In this document: piece after piece, positions 1-30,153 of the stretch | How the letters are laid out: each line of letters starts with the position of its first letter | Numbering within the stretch: the stretch's first letter is position 1 | Position numbers and translations under genes: made by a program | Notes under the pieces: model-generated | The model's input: the letters and a program-made list of their open reading frames with translations, nothing else | What the model was told of the DNA's origin: nothing | The model's database searches: none | IMG/VR virus record: IMGVR_UViG_3300031884_000089 | Span: 1 to 32,547 of that record | DNA: 32,547 nucleotides | From: a virus | Reading direction: 5' to 3' (one strand)

Positions 1-1245
1 CGTGGCCTGATCTTGGCCCCCAAGGTTGTGTGCCCCCACTGGGCCACCCAACTCGAAGCCGCAGGGTTCAGCGTTGTGCGCGGCTACGCCAAGCCCTCTG
101 CCGACCTGAAGGTCATCCTGGCAAACCGGCCCGCAGGGCTACTTGTGCTCAATTATGACAAGCTGGGCCCGGTCATCAACGCCATGCTGCGCTGGCGAGC
201 GCAGGCCGTGATCGCAGACGAATCCCACTACATCAAGAGCCCGACGTCCAACCGCTCGAAGGCCACGCGCAAAGTTGCCATGCAAGCGAAGTGGGTCCGC
301 CTCTTGACGGGGACGCCCACGCCGAACCACTACGGCGACTTGTGGTCGCAGATGGTGTGCGTGAGCGCAGACCGCTGGGGGACGTGGCCCGCCTTCAAGA
401 ACGAATTTCTCATCATGGACTCGTTCTTTCCGAGTCGCGTGGTCGGACATGTCAATGTCGACCGCCTGCAATCGAAACTCGTGGCCGACGCGGCGTTCGT
501 GCGCCGTGAAGACGTCTTCGGACCGGACTCTTACCAGACCATCGTGCGCGAGATTGATCTCCCCGAAAAGGCGTACACCCATTACGTACGGTTGGCTCGT
601 GATTGGATTCTTGACGCCCAAGACGACGGCGAAGGGGTCATCCGGGCTGATCACGTGCTCAAGCGGCTTGTGCGCCTTCAGCAGATGGCTTCGGGCTACA
701 TGGTCGACGACGAGGGCGGGGTGCATGAGATACACTCGTGCAAACTCGACGCCGTGGCCGCTGACCTCTCCGAGATCGTGGCCGCCGACGAGAAGGCCAT
801 CATCTTCCACCGCTTCCGGTGGGAGGCCCAGAAGTATTTGGAGATCGCCAAGTCGTTGACCGATAAGGTTTGGGTCATCAACGGCGACACGACCGCCGCC
901 CAGCGCGAACGTGTGGTCGAGGAGTTTCGGCGTACCAAACACGAGGGCATCGTGGTGGTACAGACCCAAGCCGGGGGCGTCGGCATTTCATTTGCCGAGG
1001 CCACGCACGCCCTGTTCGTCTCGCAGTCGTTTGCTTATGCGGACGAACAGCAAGCCAGGGACCGCATTTACAAACGCGGCGCGTCACGGTGCGTGACGTA
1101 TTACCGCTGCGTCGGCACGGTCGATGAGTACATCGGCGACGCGCTTGACAACAAACAAAACATCCACGATTCCGTCCGGCACGCCGACCGTGAGGCAATG
1201 GCGTTCGGACGATTCCGCACCCCCCGCCGCAAGGCATCTATCTAG
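1..1245 (+). CDS. SNF2-family DNA helicase/ATPase, 5' end cut by window edge
   Basis: Superfamily 2 ATPase of the SNF2 type, expected to translocate on duplex DNA in phage replication or recombination. The frame is open from base 1, and the first residues (GLILAPKVV) match the SNF2 motif Ia region, so the TTG at 13 is internal and the N terminus with Walker A lies outside the window. Counting from base 1, the Walker B box is DESH at about residue 73, followed by the motif III signature LLTGTP near 104. Motif V is QAGGVGISF near 325, and motif VI (QQARDRIYKRG) is near 350 with the arginine finger. Both RecA lobes are therefore present except the first P-loop. It heads the plus-strand module shared with two nucleases and a Sak4-like ATPase. 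Family assignment is firm; the exact role is inferred. Confidence 0.9.
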   Translation, partial: RGLILAPKVVCPHWATQLEAAGFSVVRGYAKPSADLKVILANRPAGLLVLNYDKLGPVINAMLRWRAQAVIADESHYIKSPTSNRSKATRKVAMQAKWVRLLTGTPTPNHYGDLWSQMVCVSADRWGTWPAFKNEFLIMDSFFPSRVVGHVNVDRLQSKLVADAAFVRREDVFGPDSYQTIVREIDLPEKAYTHYVRLARDWILDAQDDGEGVIRADHVLKRLVRLQQMASGYMVDDEGGVHEIHSCKLDAVAADLSEIVAADEKAIIFHRFRWEAQKYLEIAKSLTDKVWVINGDTTAAQRERVVEEFRRTKHEGIVVVQTQAGGVGISFAEATHALFVSQSFAYADEQQARDRIYKRGASRCVTYYRCVGTVDEYIGDALDNKQNIHDSVRHADREAMAFGRFRTPRRKASI

Positions 1246-1592: not shown

Positions 1593-1648
1593 GTTACAAA
1601 CGCACAACACCGCTGGCGGGTATGTGCGATGAGAGAATGAGGAAGGAT

Positions 1649-2488
1649 ATGAAGACTGTTTACCCATCGCCGACAGTACGGAAGCCATTGGTGCTTTCGA
1701 TGTCGGCGATTGCGTTGTTCCGTAAGTGTCGCCGAGCGTATCGCTACGGCTACGAAGATGGGCTGGTCACACCCAGCTCACCAGCGGCAGAACTGGGCAC
1801 GGATTTCCATGAGCTGATGAAAGCCGCTGCGGCGGGTCATCCGCTCGACCAGGACGCGCCCATGTACGCGGTGGCCGAGGAGTACCTCCGACGCCACCCT
1901 CTGCCCGATGACATCATCTCAGCCGAAGAAGGGCTGTTCACCCAGATCGTCCCCAAGGTGTGGTTGCGTACCACGTTTGATCTGGTGTACCGCGACGCCG
2001 ACGGATGGATTGTCGGACGCGACTACAAAACGTTCGAGAAGTCTCCGGCGTATGACGTCGATTTGGACTTCCAGGGACGCATCTACATCGCGGCGCTGAT
2101 GCGTGCGTTCGATACCGACCGCGTGCGCTTTGAGTACGAGTACGTGCGCCGCTCGGTCCCTGGCACCAAGAACTCTCGTGGATTTTGGGAACCCCACGAG
2201 TGCTACATCAACATGCCCGTTGTGATCTCACGCCGCGAGGCAGACGAGTTGTGGGACGAGACGATCCTTTGGGTCAAAGAGATTCTGCGCGCGCGCAAGG
2301 AGGGGCTGTTCATGCGGTCCGGCACGCGCAAAGAGTTTAGCAGCCCATGCCTTGGGTGCTTTTACGAGACGCCATGCAAGACCGAGATGTCGCACGGCGA
2401 GCTTGACGATCAAGACATTGAATTACTTGGCCTCGGGCGTCGCGAGCGTGACACCCTGCCGGCACACTTATTGGGTAAAAAGAAATGA
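1649..2488 (+). CDS. Cas4/RecB-like PD-(D/E)XK nuclease with probable Fe-S cluster
   Basis: Predicted PDDEXK_1/Cas4-type nuclease of 279 aa, likely making or trimming single-stranded ends for recombination. The start at 1649 is preferred over an ATG at 1622 because AGGAAGG lies just upstream. Visible motifs: SMSAIALFRKCRRAY near the N terminus (C27), the motif I histidine in ELGTDFHEL (H54), D111 in the TTFDLVY strand, D125-x-K127 in GRDYKT, and the QxxxY helix (Q142, Y146). C27 with C234, C237 and C243 (CLGC-x5-C) reproduces the one-plus-three cysteine pattern that holds a 4Fe-4S cluster in Cas4 and AddB. Its stop overlaps the next start (ATGA). No CRISPR or cas1/cas2 is nearby, so this is a phage recombination nuclease and not an adaptation gene. 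Confidence 0.85.
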   Translation: MKTVYPSPTVRKPLVLSMSAIALFRKCRRAYRYGYEDGLVTPSSPAAELGTDFHELMKAAAAGHPLDQDAPMYAVAEEYLRRHPLPDDIISAEEGLFTQIVPKVWLRTTFDLVYRDADGWIVGRDYKTFEKSPAYDVDLDFQGRIYIAALMRAFDTDRVRFEYEYVRRSVPGTKNSRGFWEPHECYINMPVVISRREADELWDETILWVKEILRARKEGLFMRSGTRKEFSSPCLGCFYETPCKTEMSHGELDDQDIELLGLGRRERDTLPAHLLGKKK

Positions 2489-2994
2489 GCCTTGACGACA
2501 TCTACGACCGACCGATGTTCCGTTACGACGACGAGGACCCGTGCCAACACCCAGGGCGCGACCCGTATGACCAAGACAAGTGCGTTGAGTGTGGGCTCAC
2601 ATTTCTCGCGGGGCAGATTTTCACCCCGCGCCCATTCATCGTGACAGGGCGGAACACGGACGCCGTGCGTACCGCGCCAATGGTCGAGAACTTCTACAAT
2701 AGCGAGTGGCAACGACTGCTGAAAACGACGAGGAAGAAGACGAGGAAGAAGACGAGGAAGAAGACGATGTGGAATTGGCTAGCAAAGCTGTTGGGTAAAC
2801 AACCCACCATCGAACCGAAACCGTATTACCGATTGCGCTACGATGATCGCAGGGCCAACGGCCTTTGTGTGACATGCAAGAAAGAAGCGCCAAACAAAGC
2901 CCGCAGGGGGAAGACACAGTGCTCGCACTGTGCCCAGCGACAGAAAGAATACGATGCGAAACGACGCAAAAAAGCAAAGGAAGAGAGTAAGTGA
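2485..2994 (+). CDS. Composite zinc-finger ORF carrying a portal fragment
   Basis: This 169-aa ORF has four unlike parts. Residues 1-40 contain two Cys and a CVEC knuckle. Residues 41-78 copy portal residues 105-142 with two substitutions. Residues 81-94 are TRKK repeats. Residues 95-169 form a separate-looking small protein with CVTC and CSHC pairs and a very basic end, like small phage zinc-finger proteins. M95 (ATG at 2767) sits behind an AGGAAGAAG stretch, so the true downstream gene may be 2767-2994 (75 aa) and the upstream part a scar. The start at 2485 overlaps the nuclease stop (ATGA), and the end overlaps the next GTG start. The function of the C-terminal zinc finger is unknown; nucleic-acid binding is a guess from its cysteines and charge. 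Confidence 0.55.
   Translation: MSLDDIYDRPMFRYDDEDPCQHPGRDPYDQDKCVECGLTFLAGQIFTPRPFIVTGRNTDAVRTAPMVENFYNSEWQRLLKTTRKKTRKKTRKKTMWNWLAKLLGKQPTIEPKPYYRLRYDDRRANGLCVTCKKEAPNKARRGKTQCSHCAQRQKEYDAKRRKKAKEESK
2604..2719 (+). repeat. 116-bp inverted copy of portal gene segment
   Basis: Matches the reverse complement of 29727-29842 at 111 of 116 positions, counted by hand. Mismatches are at 2617, 2619, 2631, 2685 and 2701, and bases 2632-2684 are identical for 53 nt. Similarity stops sharply at both ends. The segment is read in the same frame as in the portal gene, so both encode the same peptide apart from V to I and G to S changes. Confidence 0.95.
2727..2762 (+). repeat. Three exact 12-nt tandem repeats
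   Basis: The unit GACGAGGAAGAA occurs three times in a row, with a partial fourth. In the composite ORF frame it encodes TRKK repeats. In the frame one base earlier it encodes D-E-E-E repeats that run on to a TAA stop at 2796-2798, which looks like the acidic C-terminal tail of a different protein. The unit also supplies purine-rich sequence just before the ATG at 2767. Confidence 0.95.
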
Positions 2995-3776
2995 TTTACT
3001 ACCTTGACGCTGACGGGCGTGGATACGAAGCCGTCGAGCATCTGGTCCAAGCGAAACTCATCACGGTGTTCCCGTGCCAGTCGTTCCCGGATTTTGAAGA
3101 TGCGTGCCTGAAACTGATTCCCAAGGTCGGCCCGGATGATCTTATCATCCTGGATACGATCTCCGCGCTTGCCAACACAACACGCGGCGACTTCAAACTT
3201 GGCACCGACATCACGGCAAACATCTGGGACAAGCGCGACAAGTGGTTTGGCGACAAGACGGGCCAACTCAACTACGAAGCCGCGCAACAGATGATTATGC
3301 GTCGCCTCCGCAACTTCGAAGCCCGCAGCGCTCGCATGATTATCATTAGCCACGAGCGTGAACAACTCAACGAATTCACAGGCATGAAGTCGCGTGGCCC
3401 TGATCTCAACCCCGGGTTCTTTGGCACCCTGTTCCCGTTTGCTTCAGACATGTTTCGCCTGGGCGTCATGATGGCAAACGAGATGGCCGAAGACGGCACG
3501 GTCAAGATCGCTGCGGGCACCCGCGTGCTCTACCTCAAAATGTCGGAAGAACAAATCTGCAAGGCTCGTGTGGCGATTGAAGTCGCACAGAAACTGCCGA
3601 ACGGAATCCTCAACCCGACACTCACCAAACTGTACGGCGTCCTCAATAAGAAGCCGTCCAAACTTGTCCTGTACGGCCCACCTGGTGCCGGAAAGACGAC
3701 CCTTGCTTGCTCAGATGCTGAGGAAGCATACCAACGTGTAAACGTGCAACAACACAAGAAGAAGGAAGCGAAATGA
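2991..3776 (+). CDS. Circularly permuted Sak4-like RecA-fold ATPase (AAA_24)
   Basis: A 261-aa protein with all the expected elements of the phage Sak4/AAA_24 recombinase-like ATPase, in rotated order. It opens with the strand YYLDADGRG (residues 3-11), which in this family normally follows the P-loop helix. Walker B is LIILD (51-55), and the sensor-like strand MIIISHE follows with H121. The usual C-terminal region follows (KMSEEQICKAR, then NPTLTKLYGVL near 208-218). Only then comes the P-loop strand and Walker A, GPPGAGKTT (229-237). The GTG start at 2991 overlaps the previous stop (GTGA) and has AAGGAAGAG upstream; the end overlaps the next ATG. The expected role is annealing or strand exchange with the DUF669-like neighbour. 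It could be a functional permutant or the product of a rearrangement that destroyed activity. Confidence 0.8.
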   Translation: MIYYLDADGRGYEAVEHLVQAKLITVFPCQSFPDFEDACLKLIPKVGPDDLIILDTISALANTTRGDFKLGTDITANIWDKRDKWFGDKTGQLNYEAAQQMIMRRLRNFEARSARMIIISHEREQLNEFTGMKSRGPDLNPGFFGTLFPFASDMFRLGVMMANEMAEDGTVKIAAGTRVLYLKMSEEQICKARVAIEVAQKLPNGILNPTLTKLYGVLNKKPSKLVLYGPPGAGKTTLACSDAEEAYQRVNVQQHKKKEAK

Positions 3777-4315
3777 ACTATCAGTACGACGAAGAGATCG
3801 AACGCGCTGGCGGCATTGATCTTGACCGCGTGGTGGGCCCTGGCATTCGCGTCGAATACGGACGCTACACGGGCAAACTTGCCTCTGTCGAGATTCAACA
3901 CTCGAACTTCGACAAAGCCCCCAAACTCCTCGCGCGTTACGAGATCACCGAAGGCCCGTACCGTGGCATGGACGTGCCCGAGTACTACCCGCTCATGGCA
4001 CTCCCGCCGAAGAAGCCAGGCGGCCCGTGGTTCGCGCCAGGGCTTGCAGCCATCAAGGCGGCGTTTGCAGCCATCAAAGCCCCGGTGCCCAAACCGTTCC
4101 CGCTTGACGCGGAACGTGCGAAGAAGGCCTTCGCAATGGCCCTGGGCCGCAAGTCTCTTCTCATCGACGTGGTGCAAGACCACTACAAAGATCGTGACAC
4201 CGGGGAGATGAAAGAGAAGCGCGTGGTACGCATCATTGGCTTGGCCAATGCGCCTGCCACCGTCGATGACCTGGAAGACGCGGGCCTCGTGTCCGCTGGA
4301 GATGGCTTGATTTAA
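3773..4315 (+). CDS. DUF669-like phage protein, possible ssDNA-binding partner
   Basis: A 180-aa protein resembling the DUF669 family, which is usually encoded next to Sak4/AAA_24 ATPases in phages. The N-terminal half has the family pattern of a GxYxGxxxxVE strand (about residues 31-41), then LLARYEITEGPYRGMDVPEY (about 53-72). The middle is rich in Ala, Lys and Pro, and the C-terminal half returns to beta strands around VVQDHYKD and EKRVVRIIGL. The end is mildly acidic. The context (ATGA overlap with the ATPase, TAATG overlap with a nuclease) supports a recombination-complex role, perhaps a single-strand DNA-binding protein. The family match is by eye and no catalytic motif is present. Confidence 0.6.
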   Translation: MNYQYDEEIERAGGIDLDRVVGPGIRVEYGRYTGKLASVEIQHSNFDKAPKLLARYEITEGPYRGMDVPEYYPLMALPPKKPGGPWFAPGLAAIKAAFAAIKAPVPKPFPLDAERAKKAFAMALGRKSLLIDVVQDHYKDRDTGEMKEKRVVRIIGLANAPATVDDLEDAGLVSAGDGLI

Positions 4316-4617
4316 TGACTGAAGACCGCTTCCGCACGACCATCGTGATGCCACGTTTGCGTTCGCGCGGGGCGGTCGTCACCGTCATGCCAAAGACCGT
4401 GATGGCACCGGCTGGGGTATCAGACCTGTTGGTCTGCTACCGTGGCCGGTTCATCGCGTTAGAACTCAAATCACCAGACCCGAAGTCGCGATATGACGCG
4501 ACGCCATTGCAGCTGGATTACCAGACGCGCGTCCGCCAATCCGGCGGCTATGCGATTGTGACTTCCTCGTGGGATGACATCGAGGCCCTCTTGCGGATCG
4601 TGGACGAGGAAGTATAA
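4315..4617 (+). CDS. VRR-NUC domain nuclease
   Basis: A 100-aa stand-alone VRR-NUC protein, a PD-(D/E)XK subgroup that includes phage structure-selective nucleases and Holliday-junction-resolvase-like enzymes. The core is visible: GVSDLLV with D37, then RFIALELK giving E50-x-K52, then the conserved PLQLDYQTRVRQSGG helix and the terminal strand AIVTSSWDD. The length is typical. It starts inside the stop of the previous gene (TAATG) and is the last gene of the plus-strand module, ending 8 nt from the stop of the converging minus operon. I see no hairpin terminator between them. Confidence 0.88.
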   Translation: MTEDRFRTTIVMPRLRSRGAVVTVMPKTVMAPAGVSDLLVCYRGRFIALELKSPDPKSRYDATPLQLDYQTRVRQSGGYAIVTSSWDDIEALLRIVDEEV

Positions 4618-7088: not shown

Positions 7089-8557
7089 TAGATTTCCTTA
7101 CCGTTCTCGTCGTACAATTTACCCGTGCTTGGGTCTTTGTACAAAGTCTTTCCAGTAGACTTGCTTTTGCCAGTGACCCAATTCGACGGCGGATTGAAGC
7201 CACCAGCACCACCACCGCCCGTATTGACTTTCTTGACAGGTTGCCCAACAGCCGCGCTAAACAAATTGTCGCTAATGGTACTAACGCGGTTGGCATTAGA
7301 CTGGACTGTTGCTGCAAGCGATGCTTGTTTGCTAATGAGTGAATCCGGTTTGCTTGGGTCTAAAGCATCAAGGATTTCTTGCGGAACAGGTTTGCCATCT
7401 CTTGCACCTTCGGCTACCATCTGCCGCATTGTATTGATGCTGGTGTCAATCGAACGCAAAGCGGATTCTTGGCTTGATACGTTTTTTATAAATTCGTCAA
7501 TGTTGGTAAACGAAGCCTTTTGCAAGTCAGCAGCCAATCGGGCGCTACTGATTTCGACAGACGTCGTTTCGTTTTTAACTCTTTGGACATCCAAATTATA
7601 TGTGGATTGCCACCTTCTGTTGCTTTCTAGGCGATCACGTTCTTCTTTGGTCAACTTGTCGCCACGGTTCAGACGAAACTCTGATTGGTTTTCTTCAAAA
7701 ATTGCTTGGGCAAGTCTGCGCGCGTCGTCTGCATTTCCAATTTCGTCGTAAATCTTGTTGACGTTTGCCTTGGCAACGGCAGTCAATCCCTGATTGATGA
7801 ACGCATCCGAACGGTAATATGCCGTGTCGATATTCGCCGAAGCCAACTGGTCTTTGTTGGCCTCCAAGTACCCTGTGATTTCTTGGTAATTGCTTTGTCC
7901 TGAAGCGAATCGTTGTGCCATTTCAGACAAGTCTTTACGCATTGATACAGCGTCGCCCGGAGCCAACGCCATCTTGTATGGCAACTTTTCAATAGACTCG
8001 GGCACGTTACCAAACTTAGAACGGATGTCGGCAAGCATCGCGTCCCGTTCAGGACCAGGCTTGGCGTTCTCGACTTGCGTGCGGACGGCGCTCAAGTCGG
8101 AATACGAAAGGTCAGCAAACGTCTGCTTGGGCGTCAACTTTTCGCGGTCAATCTGCGCAACGCCGTTGACCATCTTGATCGGCGCAGGGGCCCCCGTCAG
8201 TTTTGCAACCTGATTGATCTGGTTGAGAAAGTTCGGGTCAGTCAACTGGGTGTCGCTGGTGATCTGCGCACCAATTTGAGCGTACAACTTTTTCGCAGCA
8301 TCAGCCTTGCGCGCTTGCATGGTGATCGCGTTGAGTTGCTGCTGCTGCTGTTGGTACTGCTGTTGCTGCTGGTTGTATTTGCCTTGGGCAATGATTTGCG
8401 GCAGTTGCCCAATCGCCATCAACGCTTGCGCCATTCCCCCCACGCCTGGCATGGCCGGAATTTGTTGCATTGGCGGAGGGGCAACTGGGGCCGTAAGGAG
8501 GCCGAAGTCCTGGAAACCTTGTTGCGGGGTTGCAGTAAGCGCCGAATTGTCAGCCAT
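7088..8557 (-). CDS. Internal virion protein candidate, Gln-rich helical, 489 aa
   Basis: Predicted ejected or internal virion protein in the slot of T7 gp15. The first 60 residues are Pro, Ala and Met-rich with a hydrophobic patch (GVGGMAQALMAIG). A polyglutamine run follows near residues 63-74, encoded by CAG-type repeats at about 8336-8378. The rest is helical and charged, with no enzymatic motif seen. The last 45 residues carry a Gly patch and then a Lys/Gly-rich strand region (GKSKSTGKTLYKDPSTGKLY). The gene looks more AT-rich than its neighbour: bases 7561-7620 are about 38% G+C. Role inferred from neighbours. Confidence 0.6.
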   Translation of the reverse strand: MADNSALTATPQQGFQDFGLLTAPVAPPPMQQIPAMPGVGGMAQALMAIGQLPQIIAQGKYNQQQQQYQQQQQQLNAITMQARKADAAKKLYAQIGAQITSDTQLTDPNFLNQINQVAKLTGAPAPIKMVNGVAQIDREKLTPKQTFADLSYSDLSAVRTQVENAKPGPERDAMLADIRSKFGNVPESIEKLPYKMALAPGDAVSMRKDLSEMAQRFASGQSNYQEITGYLEANKDQLASANIDTAYYRSDAFINQGLTAVAKANVNKIYDEIGNADDARRLAQAIFEENQSEFRLNRGDKLTKEERDRLESNRRWQSTYNLDVQRVKNETTSVEISSARLAADLQKASFTNIDEFIKNVSSQESALRSIDTSINTMRQMVAEGARDGKPVPQEILDALDPSKPDSLISKQASLAATVQSNANRVSTISDNLFSAAVGQPVKKVNTGGGGAGGFNPPSNWVTGKSKSTGKTLYKDPSTGKLYDENGKEI

Positions 8558-9924
8558 CAGTCGTCCTCCTCATCCGATTCTACCAGCAACCCCATGTGGA
8601 TGTCGTACCCCGCCTCGACCAATTTCTCGGCCATCTTGCGGCAGTCGCGCTCCCCGTCCGTGCGGTACTGAAGGCTCGTTCCCGACACCTTGAGTTTCTT
8701 TTTGGCGTAGTCGATGACTTCTTTGTGGAGCGCGGGCAACTCGTCACCAACCGCTAACGTCAGACCCACCAATGCTTCGGGCCCTGCCACCTCAAGGCAA
8801 CTCTGGTCTTCGCCCAGGCGGACCTGGTAGGCAATGAAGTTGCCATCCCACAGGCCATCCACGCCCCGCAGTTGGGTGCCGTCGGCGGTGCCCTTCTCGT
8901 CCTTCTTGCCGTGTTCCCACGGGTACGGCGGGATGGACAAGCGCACCGAATAGGCCAACTCTTCGTACGGTTCGGGCACGTCGTGGCCGTAGGCGACCGC
9001 GTGCAAGAACTCCCCGAGGTCCGGGAGCAACCGGAACGACGTCATCTCCGAGTCGTACCCCAGCCGTGGGGTCCACTCCAGGAAGTACGCCGTGCCGTCC
9101 TCGGCGACGATACAGTTGATGTCGTAGATGCCCGGCGGGGCGTTGTTCTTGCGGAACGCTTCGGTCAGGTTGTCCCAGCCCAACTGCCGGGCGATCTCCG
9201 GCTCGTGCTGGTAGAACCACACCACGTTGAACGAGCACCCCGTGGCCGTCCCCACGTTGTCGTTCATGAACTTCTTGTTCTCGTACGTCGCCTGGTACGG
9301 CCCCACCCAGTCGCGCCCGTTCCACCACCGTGCCGTGGAAAGTGGCACACCGTCGATCTTCTCTTGGAGGATGCACTTGCCGTGGGCTCCGTACTTCTTG
9401 ATGAGCCCTTCGAGGTACTCGGCCATCTCTTCGCCCGTGTCAGCCCCGTGCGTGGCGTCTGAGTCGACGTAGCGGTCGCTCTTGAAGTACATGGGTTTGT
9501 CCATGCTCCGAGCGGCGTTGAGGCACTCGCCGAACGACCCGAACTCCTGGTACGGCGGCAACTGGGCACCCGCTTGCTCGGCGATCTCCTGGCCGAACCC
9601 ACGGTCTTTCTCCAGGCGGTCGCAAAACTTGCCACCGCCGACGACCGTGATGCCTGCCTTGCGGGCTTGCTCTGCCAGCCCCCCGAGGCCGGATGAGTCG
9701 AACAGCATGATCGTGTCCGGCTCGCGTGCGAACGCCATGAGCTCCATCCACGAGTCGGTACGCGGGACCAAGCCCTCACCGACTGAGCGATGGGAGTACA
9801 TGGTCTTGGGTCCGCCGGTAGACGTCTCTTCCCCAATCCAGACGAGCACGTCGTGGCCTTCGTCTTGGAGGCGAGCCCACCACGACAACGCGCACCCGAA
9901 CCCGGATGCGATTGCGAATCTCAT
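8557..9924 (-). CDS. PurD-like ATP-grasp ligase
   Basis: A 455-aa enzyme of the ATP-grasp superfamily, closest by eye to phosphoribosylamine-glycine ligase (PurD). The N-terminal Rossmann-like region starts FAIASGFGCALSW and ends at ITVVGGG (92-98). The segment LEKDRGFGQEIAEQAG (104-119) resembles the PurD 'LE-sK-F-k' helix. The ATP-binding lysine is probably K148 in PMYFKSD, and ILQEKIDG (185-192) is the hinge. The metal-binding end is FLEWTPRLG (281-289). The PurD Asn after Glu-x is Thr285 here, which is unusual. The C-terminal part differs from PurD. The gene sits between ejection-protein genes and is GC-rich (bases 9001-9060 about 62%), unlike its downstream neighbour, suggesting a separate origin. 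It may ligate an amino acid or amine to a nucleotide, sugar or virion protein; the substrate is unknown. Confidence 0.75.
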   Translation of the reverse strand: MRFAIASGFGCALSWWARLQDEGHDVLVWIGEETSTGGPKTMYSHRSVGEGLVPRTDSWMELMAFAREPDTIMLFDSSGLGGLAEQARKAGITVVGGGKFCDRLEKDRGFGQEIAEQAGAQLPPYQEFGSFGECLNAARSMDKPMYFKSDRYVDSDATHGADTGEEMAEYLEGLIKKYGAHGKCILQEKIDGVPLSTARWWNGRDWVGPYQATYENKKFMNDNVGTATGCSFNVVWFYQHEPEIARQLGWDNLTEAFRKNNAPPGIYDINCIVAEDGTAYFLEWTPRLGYDSEMTSFRLLPDLGEFLHAVAYGHDVPEPYEELAYSVRLSIPPYPWEHGKKDEKGTADGTQLRGVDGLWDGNFIAYQVRLGEDQSCLEVAGPEALVGLTLAVGDELPALHKEVIDYAKKKLKVSGTSLQYRTDGERDCRKMAEKLVEAGYDIHMGLLVESDEEDD

Positions 9925-16886: not shown

Positions 16887-19331
16887 TCAGTACGTCGTCA
16901 TCGAGCCGAATACCGTGTAGGTGGCCGAACCCGTTTTGATGATGGTGAAAGTGTAGAAGTCAATCAACGACGGGTTGCCCGCCGCAGGGGCGATGTTGCC
17001 CAGCCACTTGACCGTCTGCGCCGTGCCGTCGATATTCATTGCAGAACAATAGTACGCCGTCGTGCCGTTGGTGTTCATGAATACGACGGTAATAGCCGTA
17101 CCCGTCGCCATCGCCGTGTTGAGCGTTGTGCCTGACGAATGCGCGACGTTGATGGTAAAGTTACCCGTCGCGTTTGTCGTGTAATAAAGAATCGACTGCG
17201 TAGCCGTATACAGGTTGATTGTGCCCGTGGCTGCCGTGGCGCTGACCGTGATGTTCTCGGCCATGTTGGCAAACGTCGCGGCCAACACGCTTGACGTTCC
17301 GGAGAATGTCTGCGTCCCTGTCCAGGTGTTGTTTGCAGAAAGCGATGCACCGCCCGTTGGCGCGGCCCACGATGCCGTCGTGCCGTTGCTGGTCAGCACG
17401 TAGGTGTTTGCACCGATGGCAAGGTTTGTGGCTGAATTGGTGCCGTTGCCGATAATGAGGTCGCCCGTCGCCGTTATTGGCGAAAGAGCATTGAACGCCG
17501 CAGACTTGCTGGTTTGCCCGGTCCCACCGTTGGCAATCGCAATCGTTGTGCCGTTCCACGTTCCGCTCGTAATCGTGCCGACAGACGTAAGGCTCGATCC
17601 CGTAACCGTGCTATTGAGGGTAATCCCTGTCAGCGTTCCTGCCGCCGCCGTAACCGTTCCACTTCCGCCGAGGCTGATCGCCGTTCCATTTACGGTAACG
17701 GAGCTGTTGGCAAGCTGTGTGTTTGAAATGGTGCCGCTCAATGCGGATGTCGGAATGGTCGTCGATGCTGTAACCGCCGAGGTCCCGTTCCCAATCAAGT
17801 ACCCGGTCAGCGTAGTCGCTCCGGTGCCGCCTGACGCAACGGGAAGGGTGCCCGTAGTTAGTGCACTTGAGCTCGATGCGTAGACCGCTCCGCCGCTTGT
17901 AAATGGGGTTGATCCACTAAGACCTGTGCCCCCGTAGTACGTCCCAATACCAACGCCGTTCCACGTCGCTTGCGTAATGGTCCCAGGGTATTGGAACGTG
18001 TTCGTTGACCATTGCGTGTTTGACGGAACGCTAAAGTGAAGGTCCCAGGTGCCAGCCGATGAGCCATTGCTCAACAACGTGACCGTAGCAAATGCACCCG
18101 ACGCAACCGATACCACGAGGGTCGATGTAGTATTGTTGACGGTGATAGTGCCGCTAGTTTGGTTATTGTTGAACGTGAATTGCGCGCCGATTGGCAACGT
18201 CGTCGCGTTCGGCAACGTGATGGTCTGACCACCAGACCCGGTGATAATCCAGTTTGGCGTTGACGATGCGGTCAGCGTAATCGCAGTGCCTGCCGCCTGG
18301 TTCGTGTATCCTTCGAACAATGCGTTTGTCGTAATGTTCGCGCTTGAATCGCGCAACACCACGGAGCTCGCACCGCTCGATGTCGTGACCCCGGTGCCGC
18401 CATTCGCAACCGGCAACGTGCCGGACACTTGGGTTGTCAGGCTGATGGTCCCGGTGAGACTTGATGCCGGAAACGCAGTAATGTTAACCGCTTGAGCCGG
18501 CCACGTCCCACTAACGCTGGTATTCGTCCCGTTTACCAAAGCAGGGCTGGCGGTCCCCGTACCGCCGTTAGAAATGCCGAGAATTCCCGAAAACGAAATG
18601 TTTGGCGTTGATCCGCCGCTTGAGGCGAGCGGGCTTGATGCCGTAACGCTCGAAACGCCCGTGCTACCCGTCGCCGCAATCGTTTGATTAGGCCAAGAGC
18701 CGCTAATAGTAATGTTCGCACCTTGGATAAGGCCTGGCGACGAGGTGCCTGTGCCGCCGTATGCAACGGGAATAATTCCGCCGTTCCAGGTGCCGGACGT
18801 GATCGTTCCGACCGAAGTGAGACTTGATCCGGTAACAGTACTATTGAGCGTGGTCCCGGTCAGGGTGCCTGCCGCTGCAGTAACCGTTCCACTGCCGCCA
18901 AGGCTGATCGCGGTGCCGTTGACTGTCAGCGAGCTATTTGCCAGCTGCGCATTCGTAATTGTGCCGCTAAGGGCCGTCGTCGGAATTGTGGTCGATGCCG
19001 TCATTGCCGACGTGCCGTTACCATAAACGTACCCGGTCAGCGTTGCCGCTCCGGTGCCGCCATTCGCAACCGCAAGCGTGCCCGTGAACGAGATATTTGG
19101 TGTCGTGCCGCCGCTCGATGCAAGCGGGCTCGATGCGGTTACGCTGCTGACACCGCTGCCTCCGCTGCCTGTGGAATTGATTGTCTGATTGGGCCATGTG
19201 CCCGTTATCGTGACGTTGGTGCCCGCGACAAGGCTAGGCGTTGTGGTTCCAGTACCACCGCCTGCGATCTGCAACACGCCACTACTGTTGGCGTTCTCGG
19301 CAAGAATACTAAAGTTGCGTGGGATACTCAT
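16887..19331 (-). CDS. Long tail fibre built of repeats, 814 aa
   Basis: The start at 19331 (ATG overlapping the 82-aa gene's TGA) replaces a longer reading to 19409. The protein is made of Gly/Thr/Ser-rich strand repeats typical of phage fibre shafts: IANGGTG-type turns recur, with several copies of SSVTASSPLASSGG and TWPxQ blocks. A unit of about 103 residues is present twice (17523-17831 and 18752-19060). A different C-terminal region follows SANNTWTGTQTFSGTS, with a beta domain ending VFGSMTTY. It shares cassettes with the 749-aa fibre at 19580. It is the likely carrier of the Gly-rich adhesin encoded next. Confidence 0.8.
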   Translation of the reverse strand: MSIPRNFSILAENANSSGVLQIAGGGTGTTTPSLVAGTNVTITGTWPNQTINSTGSGGSGVSSVTASSPLASSGGTTPNISFTGTLAVANGGTGAATLTGYVYGNGTSAMTASTTIPTTALSGTITNAQLANSSLTVNGTAISLGGSGTVTAAAGTLTGTTLNSTVTGSSLTSVGTITSGTWNGGIIPVAYGGTGTSSPGLIQGANITISGSWPNQTIAATGSTGVSSVTASSPLASSGGSTPNISFSGILGISNGGTGTASPALVNGTNTSVSGTWPAQAVNITAFPASSLTGTISLTTQVSGTLPVANGGTGVTTSSGASSVVLRDSSANITTNALFEGYTNQAAGTAITLTASSTPNWIITGSGGQTITLPNATTLPIGAQFTFNNNQTSGTITVNNTTSTLVVSVASGAFATVTLLSNGSSAGTWDLHFSVPSNTQWSTNTFQYPGTITQATWNGVGIGTYYGGTGLSGSTPFTSGGAVYASSSSALTTGTLPVASGGTGATTLTGYLIGNGTSAVTASTTIPTSALSGTISNTQLANSSVTVNGTAISLGGSGTVTAAAGTLTGITLNSTVTGSSLTSVGTITSGTWNGTTIAIANGGTGQTSKSAAFNALSPITATGDLIIGNGTNSATNLAIGANTYVLTSNGTTASWAAPTGGASLSANNTWTGTQTFSGTSSVLAATFANMAENITVSATAATGTINLYTATQSILYYTTNATGNFTINVAHSSGTTLNTAMATGTAITVVFMNTNGTTAYYCSAMNIDGTAQTVKWLGNIAPAAGNPSLIDFYTFTIIKTGSATYTVFGSMTTY
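17523..17831 (-). repeat. Fibre repeat unit, copy 2
   Basis: Encodes about 103 residues from GGTGATTLTGYLIG to IAIANGGTG, roughly 87% identical in protein to copy 1 at 18752-19060. DNA identity is lower: about 26 of 120 bases differ between 17581-17700 and 18811-18930, mostly at third codon positions. Confidence 0.85.
18752..19060 (-). repeat. Fibre repeat unit, copy 1
   Basis: Partner of 17523-17831, encoding GGTGAATLTGYVYG through IPVAYGGTG. The central stretch of about 50 residues differs from copy 2 at only one or two positions. Confidence 0.85.
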
Positions 19332-19576
19332 GACGTTCCACCAATCTGCACGAACGCCGACGTTGAGGTGTTGTAGTACCACTGATCCGCAACAACCGTG
19401 TCCGGACACTCAATCCACTCAAGCGGAGACGCCACCGGGAACGTGCTGTTCTGATCCGGCTCTACCTGTGCAACCCGTGCCGAGTTGGGGTAATACACCG
19501 GAGGAACATACGGCGGCCCTTTTTGGGCGGGGGTTTCAATGACTTGAGTACTTGGGTCAACCAATGCGTATGCCAT
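19328..19576 (-). CDS. Small fibre-cassette protein, 82 aa
   Basis: Starts MAYALVDPSTQVIE behind TAGGATAAAAC-ATG, a good ribosome-binding site, and overlaps the 814-aa fibre start. The sequence has a Pro/Tyr-rich middle (PPYVPPVYYPN) and ends with a strand pair, DQWYYNTSTSAFVQIG. This end resembles the YEWDESTTSWVLV end of the 128-aa protein at 15606, suggesting a shared C-terminal domain. It lies between the two long fibre genes. A linker or assembly role is possible but not shown. Confidence 0.6.
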   Translation of the reverse strand: MAYALVDPSTQVIETPAQKGPPYVPPVYYPNSARVAQVEPDQNSTFPVASPLEWIECPDTVVADQWYYNTSTSAFVQIGGTS

Positions 19577-19579
19577 GTT

Positions 19580-21829
19580 TTATCCTACCCACCAAAGCGC
19601 GACCACGCCACCAACGCCGCCGGTGCCGTAGATGTAGCCACCAGCGCCAGGAGACACGAGTTCGGCAGCACCAGACGTGCTATCAGAAAGCGTGTTTGAC
19701 CAAACAGTTGCGGAAGTTGTGATGAGGCTATAAAAACCATAAAAATTATTGCCAGTAAATTGAGCAAAGGTGTCTTGCAAAGATGTTGCTGCAGTATTGT
19801 TTCGTAGATTTCCACTTGACCCGGAACCATTTGATCCAGAGCCACCACTCGTGCCAGCACCACCGCCAGTAGCAGAACAGAACGAAGCAAAAGAACTGGT
19901 GTTACCGCTTGTGCCACTTCCTGACGTGCTACCTGTTCCACCGGTTCCAACGGTTATCGTGTATCCCGTTCCAGGGCTAACGGTGTAATACCCATACGCT
20001 TGCCCACCGACGCCACCGCCCGTGTTATCATTACCATCGCCGCCACCACCAGCGCCTACAACAAACGCATACACTTTTGTTACTCCTGCTGGGCACGTCC
20101 ACGTCGTGCTTGCAGTAAATACTGCGTATTGTTCTTGCACCGAAGCACCGAAAGCGGCCCATGACGTTCCGCTCGTGCCAGCAGTAGAAGAGTTGTAGTA
20201 AACTAATCCGCCACCAGTACCGCTGTACGAAAGATACAACGACCCTGACGGAGCCGAAAAAGCCGGGGTTCCCGTGCCGCTGTAGATCGACGACGTACCT
20301 ACCGCGCTGCTATATCCCGGAGTAATAGACCCGGCTACGCTTGCGCTTGTTAAACCGTAATTGCTTGACCCGGCATGCAATCCTGTTGACGTAATTGTGC
20401 CGTAATACCCGGTGCTTCCGTCTCCAACCGCAAAACCGCCCGTCGCACCATTGTTGTAATTGAGCGCAACAACGGATGCAGAACTATTGCCCGAATTGAT
20501 AATCAGGTTCCCGGAACTGCTCGACACTTGGAAGGTAACAACTTCACTGGCGGTAATATTGCCATTGACCGTTGCGCTTGTCGGACCGTAGGTGCTGGAA
20601 CCTGCAACAAATGAACCGCTTGTCGTTACCGAGCCCGCATTCCAGGTCCCTGTCGTGATTGTGCCGACAGTGGTTAGAGACGTGCTACCTGCAAGCGGGG
20701 ACGCACCCACAGTATTGTATGAAATCGTGACGGCAGAACTACCGTTGAACGATTGAGGACTGGCACCGCCTGTGCCACTGCTGTTGATCGTCAGCGAGTT
20801 GGTTGTCGTTCCGCCTCCCGACGGAGCCGCCCATGTTGCCGTCGTTCCGTTACTTGTCAGAACGTAAGTGTTCGCGCCAATCGCCAAACGTGTTGCGCTA
20901 TTGGTACCATTCCCAATAATCAAATCACCAGTGCTGGTGATCGGAGATAGGGCATTGAATGCAGCCGTGCCAGATGTCTGGCCTGTGCCGCCATTCGCAA
21001 TGGCAAGCGTCCCTATTACTTGAGTTGCAAGGTTGATACTGCCCGACAACGTGCCAAGCGAAACAACGTCCACGATGTCGCCCGTGTTGGCTCCCGTTGC
21101 CAACACGATTGCTGTCCCGCTCGTTGCCGTGTAATCGGTTGTCGCCAAGAACACACCGTTGAGATATACCTGAACCGAACCGACGGTGTACGTAACGGTA
21201 AAACTAGTTTGCCCGCTTGTCGCAGTGAACGTCGTGCGCGTGTACGTCGTCGGGAAGGCCGTCGCGTTGATCGTTTGATTCGGCCACGAACCTGTAATGC
21301 TGACGTTTGACCCGGCTACAAGACTGGGCGTAGATGTCCCGCTACCGCCATTCGCGACGGGCAAAATGCCCGACACCTGGGTTGTGAGACTAACGCTACC
21401 AGTAAGGCTCGATGCTGGAAACGACGTCACGTTCACCGCTTGCGCGGGCCACGTTCCGCTAACGCTCGTGTTTGTGCCGCTTACCAACGAAGGGCTAGAC
21501 GTCCCCGTACCACCATTGGAAACGCCAAGGATACCCGTAAACGAAATGTTGGGGGTTGTGCCACCACTTGATGCCAACGGACTTGAAGCCGTGACCGATG
21601 TGACTGTGCCGCTATTCGTTGCAGAGATCGTGTAATTCGGCCACGACCCGCTCAACGATATACCCGTGCCTGCAGTCAACGCAGGGCTCGTGGTGCCCGT
21701 GCCACCGTAGATCACATCTAACGGGGTACCCAACGTCAATGACGCGGCAGCAACAACACTGCTGAATGTTCCGGTAGTCCCGGAAATCGTGCCGCCGGAT
21801 ACGTTGCCGTAATACGTTGGTAATGACAC
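19580..21829 (-). CDS. Tail fibre with C-terminal glycine-rich domain, 749 aa
   Basis: Second repeat-built fibre. GTG start at 21829 after the upstream TAA, with GGAGGG 6 nt before it. The N-terminal part has VSGGTISGTTGTFSSV, typical of fibre shafts. Turns of the YGGTGTTSP type and blocks shared with the 814-aa fibre follow, notably FNALSPIT-TGDLIIGNGTNS. An insert near residues 200-260 (SGQTSFTVTYTVGSVQVYLNG) resembles a small beta domain seen in other fibres. The last 150 residues are a glycine-rich tip domain opening TTWTCPAGVTKVYAFVVGAGGGG, a known C-terminal module of phage fibres. It probably binds the host surface. Confidence 0.8.
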   Translation of the reverse strand: MSLPTYYGNVSGGTISGTTGTFSSVVAAASLTLGTPLDVIYGGTGTTSPALTAGTGISLSGSWPNYTISATNSGTVTSVTASSPLASSGGTTPNISFTGILGVSNGGTGTSSPSLVSGTNTSVSGTWPAQAVNVTSFPASSLTGSVSLTTQVSGILPVANGGSGTSTPSLVAGSNVSITGSWPNQTINATAFPTTYTRTTFTATSGQTSFTVTYTVGSVQVYLNGVFLATTDYTATSGTAIVLATGANTGDIVDVVSLGTLSGSINLATQVIGTLAIANGGTGQTSGTAAFNALSPITSTGDLIIGNGTNSATRLAIGANTYVLTSNGTTATWAAPSGGGTTTNSLTINSSGTGGASPQSFNGSSAVTISYNTVGASPLAGSTSLTTVGTITTGTWNAGSVTTSGSFVAGSSTYGPTSATVNGNITASEVVTFQVSSSSGNLIINSGNSSASVVALNYNNGATGGFAVGDGSTGYYGTITSTGLHAGSSNYGLTSASVAGSITPGYSSAVGTSSIYSGTGTPAFSAPSGSLYLSYSGTGGGLVYYNSSTAGTSGTSWAAFGASVQEQYAVFTASTTWTCPAGVTKVYAFVVGAGGGGDGNDNTGGGVGGQAYGYYTVSPGTGYTITVGTGGTGSTSGSGTSGNTSSFASFCSATGGGAGTSGGSGSNGSGSSGNLRNNTAATSLQDTFAQFTGNNFYGFYSLITTSATVWSNTLSDSTSGAAELVSPGAGGYIYGTGGVGGVVALWWVG

Positions 21830-22183: not shown

Positions 22184-23008
22184 TCACCAGTAATCGCCGG
22201 ACGTGAACCCACCAATCTTGTACGACCCGCGATAGTTGAGCATCTGGAACTGGTCGTCTTCAATCGCGTACTGACGCTTCCAGGTCCGCAAACGCCGCAC
22301 TTCCTGTTCGTACTTCTGACCGTACATCGTGCCAATGGCCGCCGTCGCCTGGTCACGGTCAGCGTGCAACATCTCGTCAAGCATCCGGTACGTGATGGCA
22401 TCCATGAAGTTGTCTGGCACCACCACCGTTTGCGTGAGCACCGTCGGAATCGTCAACGTCGTTGGGACACGCACGCAGTCAATCGTGATGATGACCCCTG
22501 CCGTTGGCGCTGGCACGAATCCGATGTAGCCGCCTCGACGGTAATACCGAGGCCGCTGGCCAGCAAACCACGGCTGGGCAACCGGAGATGGCGCTCCCCA
22601 ACTGTTGAGGTAAGGATAGGCCAACGGCGTTTGGATGGCCCACTGCGGCTGCGAGAACGTGCCGCCTGCCGCGCCGCCACCGCCTGCCGGGACTGCTCCC
22701 TGGCCAGTCTGATCGTTGAAGTGGATTTGGTCGCCTTCAAGCGTGTCGACATTGCCAGGCACCTCCACACAGATTTGCCCGTTGAGATATACCCGATAGA
22801 TGGCGTGCATCTCGGGCAAGTCAAACTCTTGCTCGTTCCCTGGAGCCGTCAGCGTCAAGCGAGACTCGGGAAAATAGATTCGAGCGACCAATGACTTGAT
22901 CGCTCGATCTGCCCGACGAGTCAACATGTCGTTTGACCATCGGGAGTTATTGGTGTTCGGCGTATTCGACAAGTCCCGAGCGTTGTTGAGAATGTCCTGG
23001 ACTTGCAT
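22184..23008 (-). CDS. Head-tail adaptor protein (SU10/T7 gp11-like)
   Basis: A 274-aa portal-adaptor candidate. It opens MQVQDILNNARDLSNTP, then MLTRRADRAIKSLVARIYFP, the helical start typical of podovirus adaptors. A beta insert follows (LTLTAPGNEQEFDLPEMHAIYRVYLNGQICVEVP, spanning about 51-85), then a Gly/Pro loop region. The C-terminal helices contain VVPDNFMDAITYRMLDEMLHADRDQ, AIGTMYGQKYEQEVRRLR. Such adaptors dock under the portal and bind the nozzle. The start overlaps the holin-like gene's stop (TAATG). Confidence 0.72.
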   Translation of the reverse strand: MQVQDILNNARDLSNTPNTNNSRWSNDMLTRRADRAIKSLVARIYFPESRLTLTAPGNEQEFDLPEMHAIYRVYLNGQICVEVPGNVDTLEGDQIHFNDQTGQGAVPAGGGGAAGGTFSQPQWAIQTPLAYPYLNSWGAPSPVAQPWFAGQRPRYYRRGGYIGFVPAPTAGVIITIDCVRVPTTLTIPTVLTQTVVVPDNFMDAITYRMLDEMLHADRDQATAAIGTMYGQKYEQEVRRLRTWKRQYAIEDDQFQMLNYRGSYKIGGFTSGDYW

Positions 23009-28083: not shown

Positions 28084-30153
28084 CTATCGTCGTCCCATAG
28101 GCATACGCATTTGCGGACGAGGTTGCTGTTGTGGACGCGCTACTTGTGGCGCTTGACCAGCGGGCCTACCCGGTTGCCCCTGCGGTTGCGGGGGACGCTG
28201 AGGCTGTTGCTGGCCAGGTTGCCCACCGCCAGGAGGACCACCTTGTTGCGCCTGTGTTTGCGCCTGTTGTTGCTGTTGCTCTTCCCGTTGCTGTGCTTCC
28301 TGCTCAGTGCCGATGAGAAGCTGAAGGTCCTGCCGGTTGAAAGAATCACCCAGCATCTTCACCCAGTAATATTGCTTGAGCGGAGACTGAGCAATCCACG
28401 GGATGCTCATCGCAATCTGGAAGAACGCCAACGACTCTTGCCGACGAGTGATCGAATCAATCGGGTCACTCGCGCCAGCCACCCCGATGAGGTAGTCCTT
28501 CGCGAGCGTCTGAAGGTCGATTTTCATCGTCTGCTGACCCACCATCGTCTCGGGGTCAGTCTGCAAGTATTGCTTGTTCAGCGCATGAGTGAAGTTGATA
28601 ATCTGGCCAAGCGCGACCCGGAGACGGGTGGCTAGCAAGCCCAAGCGCGTACCTGCGGCAGAGTTCTGCTGACGCATCTCCGTCGCGCTACGCTTCCCAG
28701 ATGACTGCGCTCCAATCATCGGCATGTTCAGCCCGGTGTACTCCGTGCCGTATTGCTTAAGCGCACTCTCTTCTTGCCACGACGAGATCGGAACGTCGGC
28801 GATCTGCATGATCTTGACGGCTGGGTCTGCACCCACGAAGTCCGTCTCGATCATTTCGCCAGGATACCATCGGCCCTTACGAGTCAATATCTCTGACCCC
28901 GTGGGCACGGCCATCGGCGGGAACAACCCAAACTGGATACGGTCGTTGCGGGCGTTGTGCGTGGCACGCAACTCTGTCTCGATGCCCGCTAACCGCTCGA
29001 CCAGGCTGTACCCGTAAAAGTTGTCCGCACGCGGGAACGGGCAGTACGAGAAGAACGGACGGCGACCGTCGGCGTAATCGTACGGCACCCAACCCAACAT
29101 CTTCTGGCTCAACTCGTGCAACCAGAAAATGTTCTCTTCCGTCATGCCGTCTTCGTTCATGTCAAACTGACGGCTGTGGATACGCCAGACCTTGAGCGGG
29201 CCACGGTTCTTGAAGAACGGGCTGGACATACTGCCCTGCCCCTGGCCTAACCCAATCTGGTATGACGCAGACTTATCGTACGTGCCCTCTGGGTCGGAGG
29301 CTACGTCACTGGTTCCGTTCTCGTCGTAACGAAGGGCTTTCTCCACTTCGTCGGAGTCCAGTAGACCAGCCCGAACCATCCGATCAAGGTCATCTTCGTA
29401 GAGCCACTCCACGCACGCGACACCCGCAGCCTCTTCGATTGAAGGAGCCTCGTCCGGGATGAGGATGAATTCTTTGAGCGGTACGCACCGCCACTCGGGG
29501 TAATCCTTGACGAAGATGTCGACCGTATCACGACGCACATCCCATTGCGGCTGACCGTCTGGACCAAACACCACCTGCCCGTTTTCGTCCGTCATCGGGA
29601 CCGACATCTCGACTTCCCGACGATGACGACGACGAGTCCACAACACTTCCAGAATGCCTACGCCATCACGTAACGCCAACTGGTTGAGTTGAATCGCCTT
29701 TTGGAAATACGAAGACCCATCCGAACGCAGTCGTTGCCACTCGCCATTGTAGAAGTTCTCTACCATTGGCGCGGTACGCACGGCGTCCGTGTTCCGCCCT
29801 GTCACGATGAATGGACGCGGGGTGAAGACCTGCCCCGCGAGATAGGCATGTAACGACTCTAACTGACCTGCGGTATAGGGCAACGCCAAATTCGATGAGT
29901 TGACAAACGGCCAGTCCTTCTCGGACGTCACCATGTCGTAGGCGTCAGACCACTCCTTGAGGTTCGCATTCAATGCGCCACGCGCAGACAGCGAAGCCAA
30001 GACCGTCTGGTAGAGGTCGTTGGAAAGCAAATTCCACTTGCTATCAGTGAGCTTCTTATCTTTCGACGCAGAAGCAAACCGAACAGTGGCGTGCTTGGGC
30101 TGATGTGTCTCGACACCCCCATGTAAGGGGATGTCTTCTTCCTTAGGCTTCAA
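28084..30153 (-). CDS. Portal protein
   Basis: A 689-aa portal, the 12-fold ring at the capsid vertex through which DNA is packaged. The start is a TTG at 30153: an in-frame stop lies just upstream and no ATG is available nearby. Recognisable parts are the N-terminal clip/stem region with WPFVNSSNLALPYTAGQLESLHAYLAGQ, the segment RPFFSYCPFPRADNFYGYSLVERLAGIETELRATHNARND (about 377-416), and the C-terminal helix MRQQNSAAGTRLGLLATRLR. The last 75 residues are Gln/Pro/Gly-rich and disordered (barrel or tail). Residues 105-142 are copied at 2604-2719. Confidence 0.87.
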   Translation of the reverse strand: MKPKEEDIPLHGGVETHQPKHATVRFASASKDKKLTDSKWNLLSNDLYQTVLASLSARGALNANLKEWSDAYDMVTSEKDWPFVNSSNLALPYTAGQLESLHAYLAGQVFTPRPFIVTGRNTDAVRTAPMVENFYNGEWQRLRSDGSSYFQKAIQLNQLALRDGVGILEVLWTRRRHRREVEMSVPMTDENGQVVFGPDGQPQWDVRRDTVDIFVKDYPEWRCVPLKEFILIPDEAPSIEEAAGVACVEWLYEDDLDRMVRAGLLDSDEVEKALRYDENGTSDVASDPEGTYDKSASYQIGLGQGQGSMSSPFFKNRGPLKVWRIHSRQFDMNEDGMTEENIFWLHELSQKMLGWVPYDYADGRRPFFSYCPFPRADNFYGYSLVERLAGIETELRATHNARNDRIQFGLFPPMAVPTGSEILTRKGRWYPGEMIETDFVGADPAVKIMQIADVPISSWQEESALKQYGTEYTGLNMPMIGAQSSGKRSATEMRQQNSAAGTRLGLLATRLRVALGQIINFTHALNKQYLQTDPETMVGQQTMKIDLQTLAKDYLIGVAGASDPIDSITRRQESLAFFQIAMSIPWIAQSPLKQYYWVKMLGDSFNRQDLQLLIGTEQEAQQREEQQQQQAQTQAQQGGPPGGGQPGQQQPQRPPQPQGQPGRPAGQAPQVARPQQQPRPQMRMPMGRR
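29727..29842 (-). repeat. Portal segment that has an inverted copy at 2604-2719
   Basis: Encodes portal residues 105-142 and is the likely source of the fragment inside the composite ORF; 111 of 116 bases agree with the other copy. Confidence 0.95.

Follow-up and report, generated by a model that had tools for sequence, protein, structure and literature searches.

A probable natural circular permutant of the phage recombinase Sak4, with its P-loop at the C terminus

How can a protein of the length of an intact RecA-type ATPase core carry its P-loop at the wrong end? The question is raised by ORF 2991-3776 of a linear IMG/VR record (IMGVR_UViG_3300031884_000089, 32,547 bases; analyzed over its whole length and called the window below). 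The preliminary description of this DNA had read its 261-aa product as a Sak4/RecA core in rotated order, with an N-terminal strand b2, Walker B at residues 51-55, and Walker A at 229-237. That order is confirmed: LIILD and GPPGAGKTT stand at those positions, and IYYLDADGRG begins at residue 2. We conclude that the gene very probably encodes a Sak4, a phage recombinase and RecA/Rad51-core single-strand annealing protein, that has undergone circular permutation in nature, and that the product most likely has a rebuilt ATP site and a role in annealing alongside its neighbors.

The gene itself is tightly bounded. As described earlier, it starts with a GTG that overlaps the upstream TGA (GTGA, 2991-2994), the ribosome-binding site AAGGAAGAG stands before this start, and at its 3' end the stop shares bases with the ATG of the following gene (3773). 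Not one in-frame codon separates the GTG from the stop before it, which leaves no room for a hidden N-terminal P-loop; such a segment is likewise excluded 5' of the permuted genes as a group, since a stop is reached within 18 codons in 7/7. On the plus strand of the whole window, the pattern GxxxxGK[ST] occurs only at 3675, in the Walker A of this gene, and the single other match in the window lies on the minus strand at 22794. The chance of one such Walker A in a 261-aa protein of the same composition is about 0.011, and its C-terminal place is the same in 7/7 homologues.

Relatives were found through the operon. The upstream exonuclease, used as a query, gave the first of them, IMGVR_UViG_3300048502_000193 (L002), in which the gene after the exonuclease encodes a 262-aa homologue with 44% identity over its full length, C-terminal P-loop included. 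Further IMG/VR scans returned the same protein from 3300044822_000018 (L004), 3300014501_000583 (L006), 3300047576_000033 (L007), 3300009500_000017 (L025), and 3300043788_000228 (L026). The seven permuted proteins, all from contigs of uncultivated viruses, are 257-274 aa long and share 27-52% pairwise identity. Related genomes had been named as a place where the P-loop might be met at the 5' end of the gene; in 6/6 relatives it is at the 3' end instead. An assembly or sequencing artefact, with the P-loop segment misplaced to the wrong gene end in the window contig, might be suspected from a single metagenomic contig that has an oddity close by, an inverted 116-nt portal fragment. However, it is already refuted by the rotated order in six other contigs at this level of identity, and codon statistics (below) indicate selection on the moved segment, so that we give it practically no credence. 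ORF 2991-3776 is neither a contig error nor a broken gene.

The portal fragment is an observation of its own. It corresponds to window positions 29727-29842, in the portal gene, with 5 mismatches and lies inverted at 2604-2719, within ORF 2485-2994, where it is read in the portal frame. It has one zinc-ribbon-like part on each side, and a short GAAGAAGACGAG repeat lies next to it. Either it was inserted recently or the assembly is chimeric here.

Table 1. Coordinates of the putative permuted Sak4 gene, of its parts, and of its operon neighbors in the window
Feature	Position	Strand	Remarks
SNF2-type helicase	13..1245	+	5' end cut by the contig
PD-(D/E)XK / Cas4-type exonuclease of the recombination operon	1622..2488	+	
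Sak4-like RecA-core ATPase, probably circularly permuted	2991..3776	+	261 aa; profile matches and homologues L002, L004, L006, L007, L025, L026
Strand b2, IYYLDAD, residues 2-8	2994..3014	+	D8 where ordinary Sak4/RecA has the catalytic glutamate
Walker B, LIILD (51-55)	3141..3155	+	
Low-confidence loop, residues 62-92	3174..3266	+	invariant TRGD (64-67) in alignment of seven; pLDDT under 50
Strand with MIIISHE	3333..3353	+	sensor-like His121 invariant
K191-A-R193	3561..3569	+	at the trans-acting AKxR position of Sak4; K191 invariant in 7/7
Former C-terminal helix, NPTLTKLYGVL	3609..3650	+	strand b1 directly after
Relocated segment, residues 224-243	3660..3719	+	strand b1, P-loop, start of helix A; under the strongest constraint in the protein
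Walker A, GPPGAGKTT (229-237)	3675..3701	+	
New C-terminal tail, residues 244-261	3720..3773	+	poorly conserved
SSB-like protein	3773..4315	+	orthologues match SSB PHROGs and DUF669
Small nuclease/Holliday-junction-resolvase-like protein	4315..4617	+	phrog_93, phrog_824, phrog_5702

Circular permutation makes a simple prediction, which the preliminary description had put as follows: joining residue 261 to residue 1 would restore the family order. We compared the proteins with a profile built from nine aligned ordinary Sak4 proteins, taken from cultured phages and one metagenomic phage. The window protein matched it in two swapped pieces, residues 2-197 on columns 42-220 and residues 221-242 on columns 18-39, scoring 37.0 and 22.0 bits. 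When the sequence was doubled, one piece spanned residues 221-458 on columns 18-220 with 66.2 bits. In the five permuted proteins first found, the single junction-spanning match scored approximately the sum of the separate pieces; L025 and L026 behave likewise, giving two swapped pieces singly and one when doubled. The family order is therefore restored by the join in 7/7 proteins. In profile-profile comparison, pieces of 195 and 22 columns (Prob 98.5 and 96.1) became one of 219 columns after doubling (Prob 99.5, E 1.1e-22). Two ordinary proteins served as controls: the Sak4 of a prophage (L013) gave one colinear match and, when doubled, two complete copies with no match across the junction, and the solved Sak4 8rc5 was matched as one colinear stretch.

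The points of cutting and joining can be placed from the sequence. The stretch before the relocated segment corresponds to the old C-terminal helix (NPTLTKLYGVL in the window, NPTMPKIIEAI in Arthrobacter phage Anansi), and only a few residues separate the fused old C and N termini, a near-zero linker. The cut falls between helix A and b2, in a loop of variable length among ordinary Sak4s. All permuted proteins show the element order b2, Walker B, sensor, KxR, P-loop, in place of the ordinary Sak4 order P-loop, b2, Walker B, sensor, C-terminal AKxR.

Family profiles give the same picture. PHROG 124 (Sak4-like ssDNA annealing protein) matches 7/7 permuted proteins, with the best E value of 1.2e-17 for the window protein (residues 4-200 on profile positions 68-242). 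In a six-frame search of the window record, profile positions 40-63 come after 67-241, and the two pieces are swapped likewise in the records of the relatives. The best stretch for Pfam AAA_24 is residues 222-241 on profile positions 2-21 (whole-protein E 3.7e-7, above the curated cut-off). We thus class the product as a permuted Sak4 variant, and not as an ordinary member of the family, because the linear order of its motifs is rotated.

Does the P-loop belong to Sak4 in the first place? The relocated segment is short (strand b1, P-loop, and helix A, some 20-35 residues) and, on its own, is similar to AAA+ P-loops as well; weak matches come from several ATPase families, and a PDB sequence search with the permuted profile returned mostly AAA+ P-loops. 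One could therefore imagine that the native P-loop was lost and replaced by that of another ATPase, for example an AAA+ or DnaC-like protein, fused C-terminally, so that the protein only looks permuted. Against this, the best Pfam match of the segment is the Sak4 family AAA_24, the ordinary Sak4 profile scores it with 22 bits in the correct register, the join sits exactly at the domain ends, and the ordinary prophage Sak4 L013, a GTDB match, was picked up through this very segment (35% identity over residues 197-254). We regard replacement as improbable and descent of the segment from Sak4's own P-loop as likely; the latter falls short of proof since the segment is short and P-loops are alike across families. 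Two other GTDB matches, L014 and the similar L015, were rejected as Sak4 relatives, being an unrelated AAA+ protein.

Outside the seven contigs, no permuted relative was found in GTDB genomes or in searches of cultured phages. In tblastn against cultured phages the unrotated window protein gave no match at E 1e-3, and the L007 and L026 proteins none at 0.1; the rotated window protein retrieved ordinary Sak4s (Gordonia phages and others), colinear over up to 89%, as weak matches with a best E of 0.01. Single-sequence scans of viral contigs with the permuted Sak4 and with the downstream gene yielded no confirmed match. A search through the exonuclease for members of the same clade that keep the ordinary order found none, every relative being permuted, and none of the seven contigs with a permuted Sak4 contains a second Sak4 match.

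Active-site residues are largely kept. Walker A G232, G234, K235, and T/S236 and Walker B D55 are present in 7/7 permuted proteins, and the sensor His121 and the trans Lys191 are likewise conserved in all seven. The end of b2 differs: Asp8 is found in 7/7, versus Glu in 9/9 ordinary Sak4s (alignment column E48). We take this position to be that of the catalytic Glu96 of E. coli RecA, and with Asp in its place ATP hydrolysis could be slow or lost. The loop after Walker B with its TRGD motif may be an ssDNA-binding loop, L1-like by analogy with Rad51.

The Glu-to-Asp change would suit a Sak4 relative that has degenerated and lost ATP binding, its C-terminal P-loop being a relic or serving another role. 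This, too, seems improbable, slightly more so than replacement: all the other residues just listed are kept, and the P-loop is the slowest-changing part of the protein. In pairwise comparison of all seven genes, differences at codon positions 1, 2, and 3 amount to 0.48, 0.38, and 0.67 across the whole gene, to 0.34, 0.26, and 0.67 in residues 224-243, and to 0.68, 0.56, and 0.67 in the tail (244-261). Constraint at the first two codon positions is thus strongest in the relocated P-loop stretch, and the tail that follows drifts, which argues against both an artefact and a relic.

The preliminary description had proposed a comparison of the predicted structure with an ordinary Sak4. AlphaFold2 models were obtained for the window protein (five sequences; pLDDT 71, pTM 0.73) and for an alignment of seven sequences with L007 first (pLDDT 82, pTM 0.81); in the latter, strand b1 (228-233) lies in blocks with a mean pLDDT of 91-93. 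The C-terminal strand and P-loop are modeled at high confidence. In VIA-align, solved Sak4 8rc5 (8rc5_1A) ranked first for both models, with Z 10.8 over 166 residues at 3.7 A for the window and Z 13.4 over 168 residues at 3.0 A for L007, where the next entries have Z 10.5. Model residues 1-220 or 1-224 align with 8rc5 chain residues 50-257, and residues 221-261 are left unmatched by the sequential aligners. In both models residue 1 falls on residue 50 of 8rc5, past Walker A Lys41/Thr42, so that the best match starts after its P-loop, which is how a permutant should appear to a sequential aligner. The alignment bears on the rest of the chain and not on the packing of the C-terminal P-loop. Foldseek against the PDB ranked RAD51 first, for the window model with a weak E value of 0.009, presumably because the permutation splits a sequential alignment.

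From sequence, constraint, and model confidence taken together, we infer that the P-loop at the C terminus folds back into the core sheet of its own chain. It might instead act in trans, in a domain swap that completes the active site of the neighboring protomer. Sak4 forms filaments in which the neighboring protomer contributes residues at the nucleotide; in 8rc5, from phage 52A, Lys229/Arg231, the counterparts of the AKxR element at K191, lie on the protomer adjoining the one that places Lys41 and Thr42 at the nucleotide (PMC11846896). However, the old C-terminal helix and b1 are only a few residues apart, as expected for folding back, and the single-chain model is confident (pTM 0.81). We consider a swap the less probable of these two arrangements by far, and less probable also than a degenerate relative.

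The surroundings of the gene are those of a recombination operon. In each relative a PD-(D/E)XK exonuclease gene precedes the permuted Sak4 and an SSB-like gene follows it, with one or two small ORFs intervening in some, and ordinary Sak4 phages share this exonuclease-Sak4-SSB-like order. Acidic residues stand at the C-terminal end of several SSB-like proteins. The Sak4 of phage HK620 requires ATP both to bind ssDNA and to anneal complementary strands, and its SSB stimulates it through the SSB C-terminal tail (PMC5928155). The permuted Sak4 is most likely a working ATP-dependent single-strand annealing protein.

In the permuted protein as we picture it, the chain would be opened between helix A and b2, with the old C-terminal helix joined to b1 almost without a linker, and the b1-P-loop-helix A unit would be synthesized last rather than first. 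Once folded, the protein would rebuild the usual RecA-type ATP site and bind ssDNA in an ATP-dependent manner. The neighboring Cas4-type exonuclease would expose ssDNA, the SSB-like protein would cover it, and the permuted Sak4 would anneal the exposed complementary strands in cooperation with the SSB-like protein. Such a pathway is expected from the chemistry of HK620 Sak4, the place in the operon, and the acidic ends of the SSB-like proteins. As to origin, tandem duplication followed by loss of the ends, raised in the preliminary description, is a guess; no duplicate or intermediate form was found.

Other features of these contigs were recorded along the way. Five relatives (L002, L006, L007, L025, and L026) have a gene of about 720-785 aa just 5' of the exonuclease, which in L002 and L007 comes after the helicase; the product resembles a fusion of a uracil-DNA-glycosylase-type domain with a PolA-type polymerase. 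In L002 (3739-5979) an apparent N-terminal uracil-DNA-glycosylase-like domain is followed by a PolA-type DNA polymerase, and its closest matches in cultured phages, 25-30% identical, extend over almost all of it. In the window only 376 bases (1246-1621) separate helicase from exonuclease, and no glycosylase-polymerase ORF was seen. Elsewhere in the window, on the minus strand, a 455-aa ORF with an ATP-grasp-like look (8557-9924) lies among structural genes, and two long Gly/Thr/Ser-rich ORFs (16887-21829) share diverged repeats of 258-300 nt (75-78% identity) that are probably tail-fibre-like.

If the permuted Sak4 is what it appears to be, a RecA-type core tolerates a P-loop made last and the removal of its N-terminal segment, and the protein offers a natural experiment on the parts of the RecA fold that filament assembly and the coupling of ATP to DNA binding require. 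If active, it would also be a recombinase with new chain ends, practical for fusions. For annotation it is a caution, as ordinary profiles read permuted proteins as fragments. We know of no permuted Sak4 or RecA-class recombinase, and no report of one was found in the open-access literature searched. A more far-reaching proposal, which we hold only tentatively and think rather unlikely as a whole, is that this is the first natural RecA/Rad51 circular permutant and that its assembly is changed, the chain having no free N-terminal segment ahead of b1 and ATP-gated annealing taking place without the usual N-terminal inter-protomer contact and with Asp for Glu.

Among known systems, ordinary Sak4 (PHROG 124; AAA_24; HK620, PMC5928155; 52A, 8rc5, PMC11846896) is the closest. 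It shares the RecA-core length, Walker A and B, the sensor His, the C-terminal trans Lys, and the place in an exonuclease-Sak4-SSB operon, and it is the best structural match; in the permuted proteins, however, b1-P-loop-helix A is C-terminal, the segment before b1 is gone, and the catalytic Glu is Asp. RadB and the Rad51 paralogues have the same RecA-core-only recombinase fold (Rad51-type matches, Z 8-10.5), but they are cellular proteins of ordinary order. Known permutants among P-loop NTPases belong to a few GTPase lineages, with the order G4-G5-G1-G2-G3 in YlqF/YawG/YjeQ and G3-G4-G5-G1-G2 in cpRAS (PMC2430557), to which a conserved RecA-type recombinase would be added. These GTPases and the permuted Sak4 have in common a P-loop NTPase domain, a nucleotide loop shifted towards the C terminus, and evolutionary conservation; the GTPases, however, belong to the TRAFAC class, whereas the permuted Sak4 is a phage recombination ATPase of the RecA/ASCE class, with its chain opened between helix A and b2.
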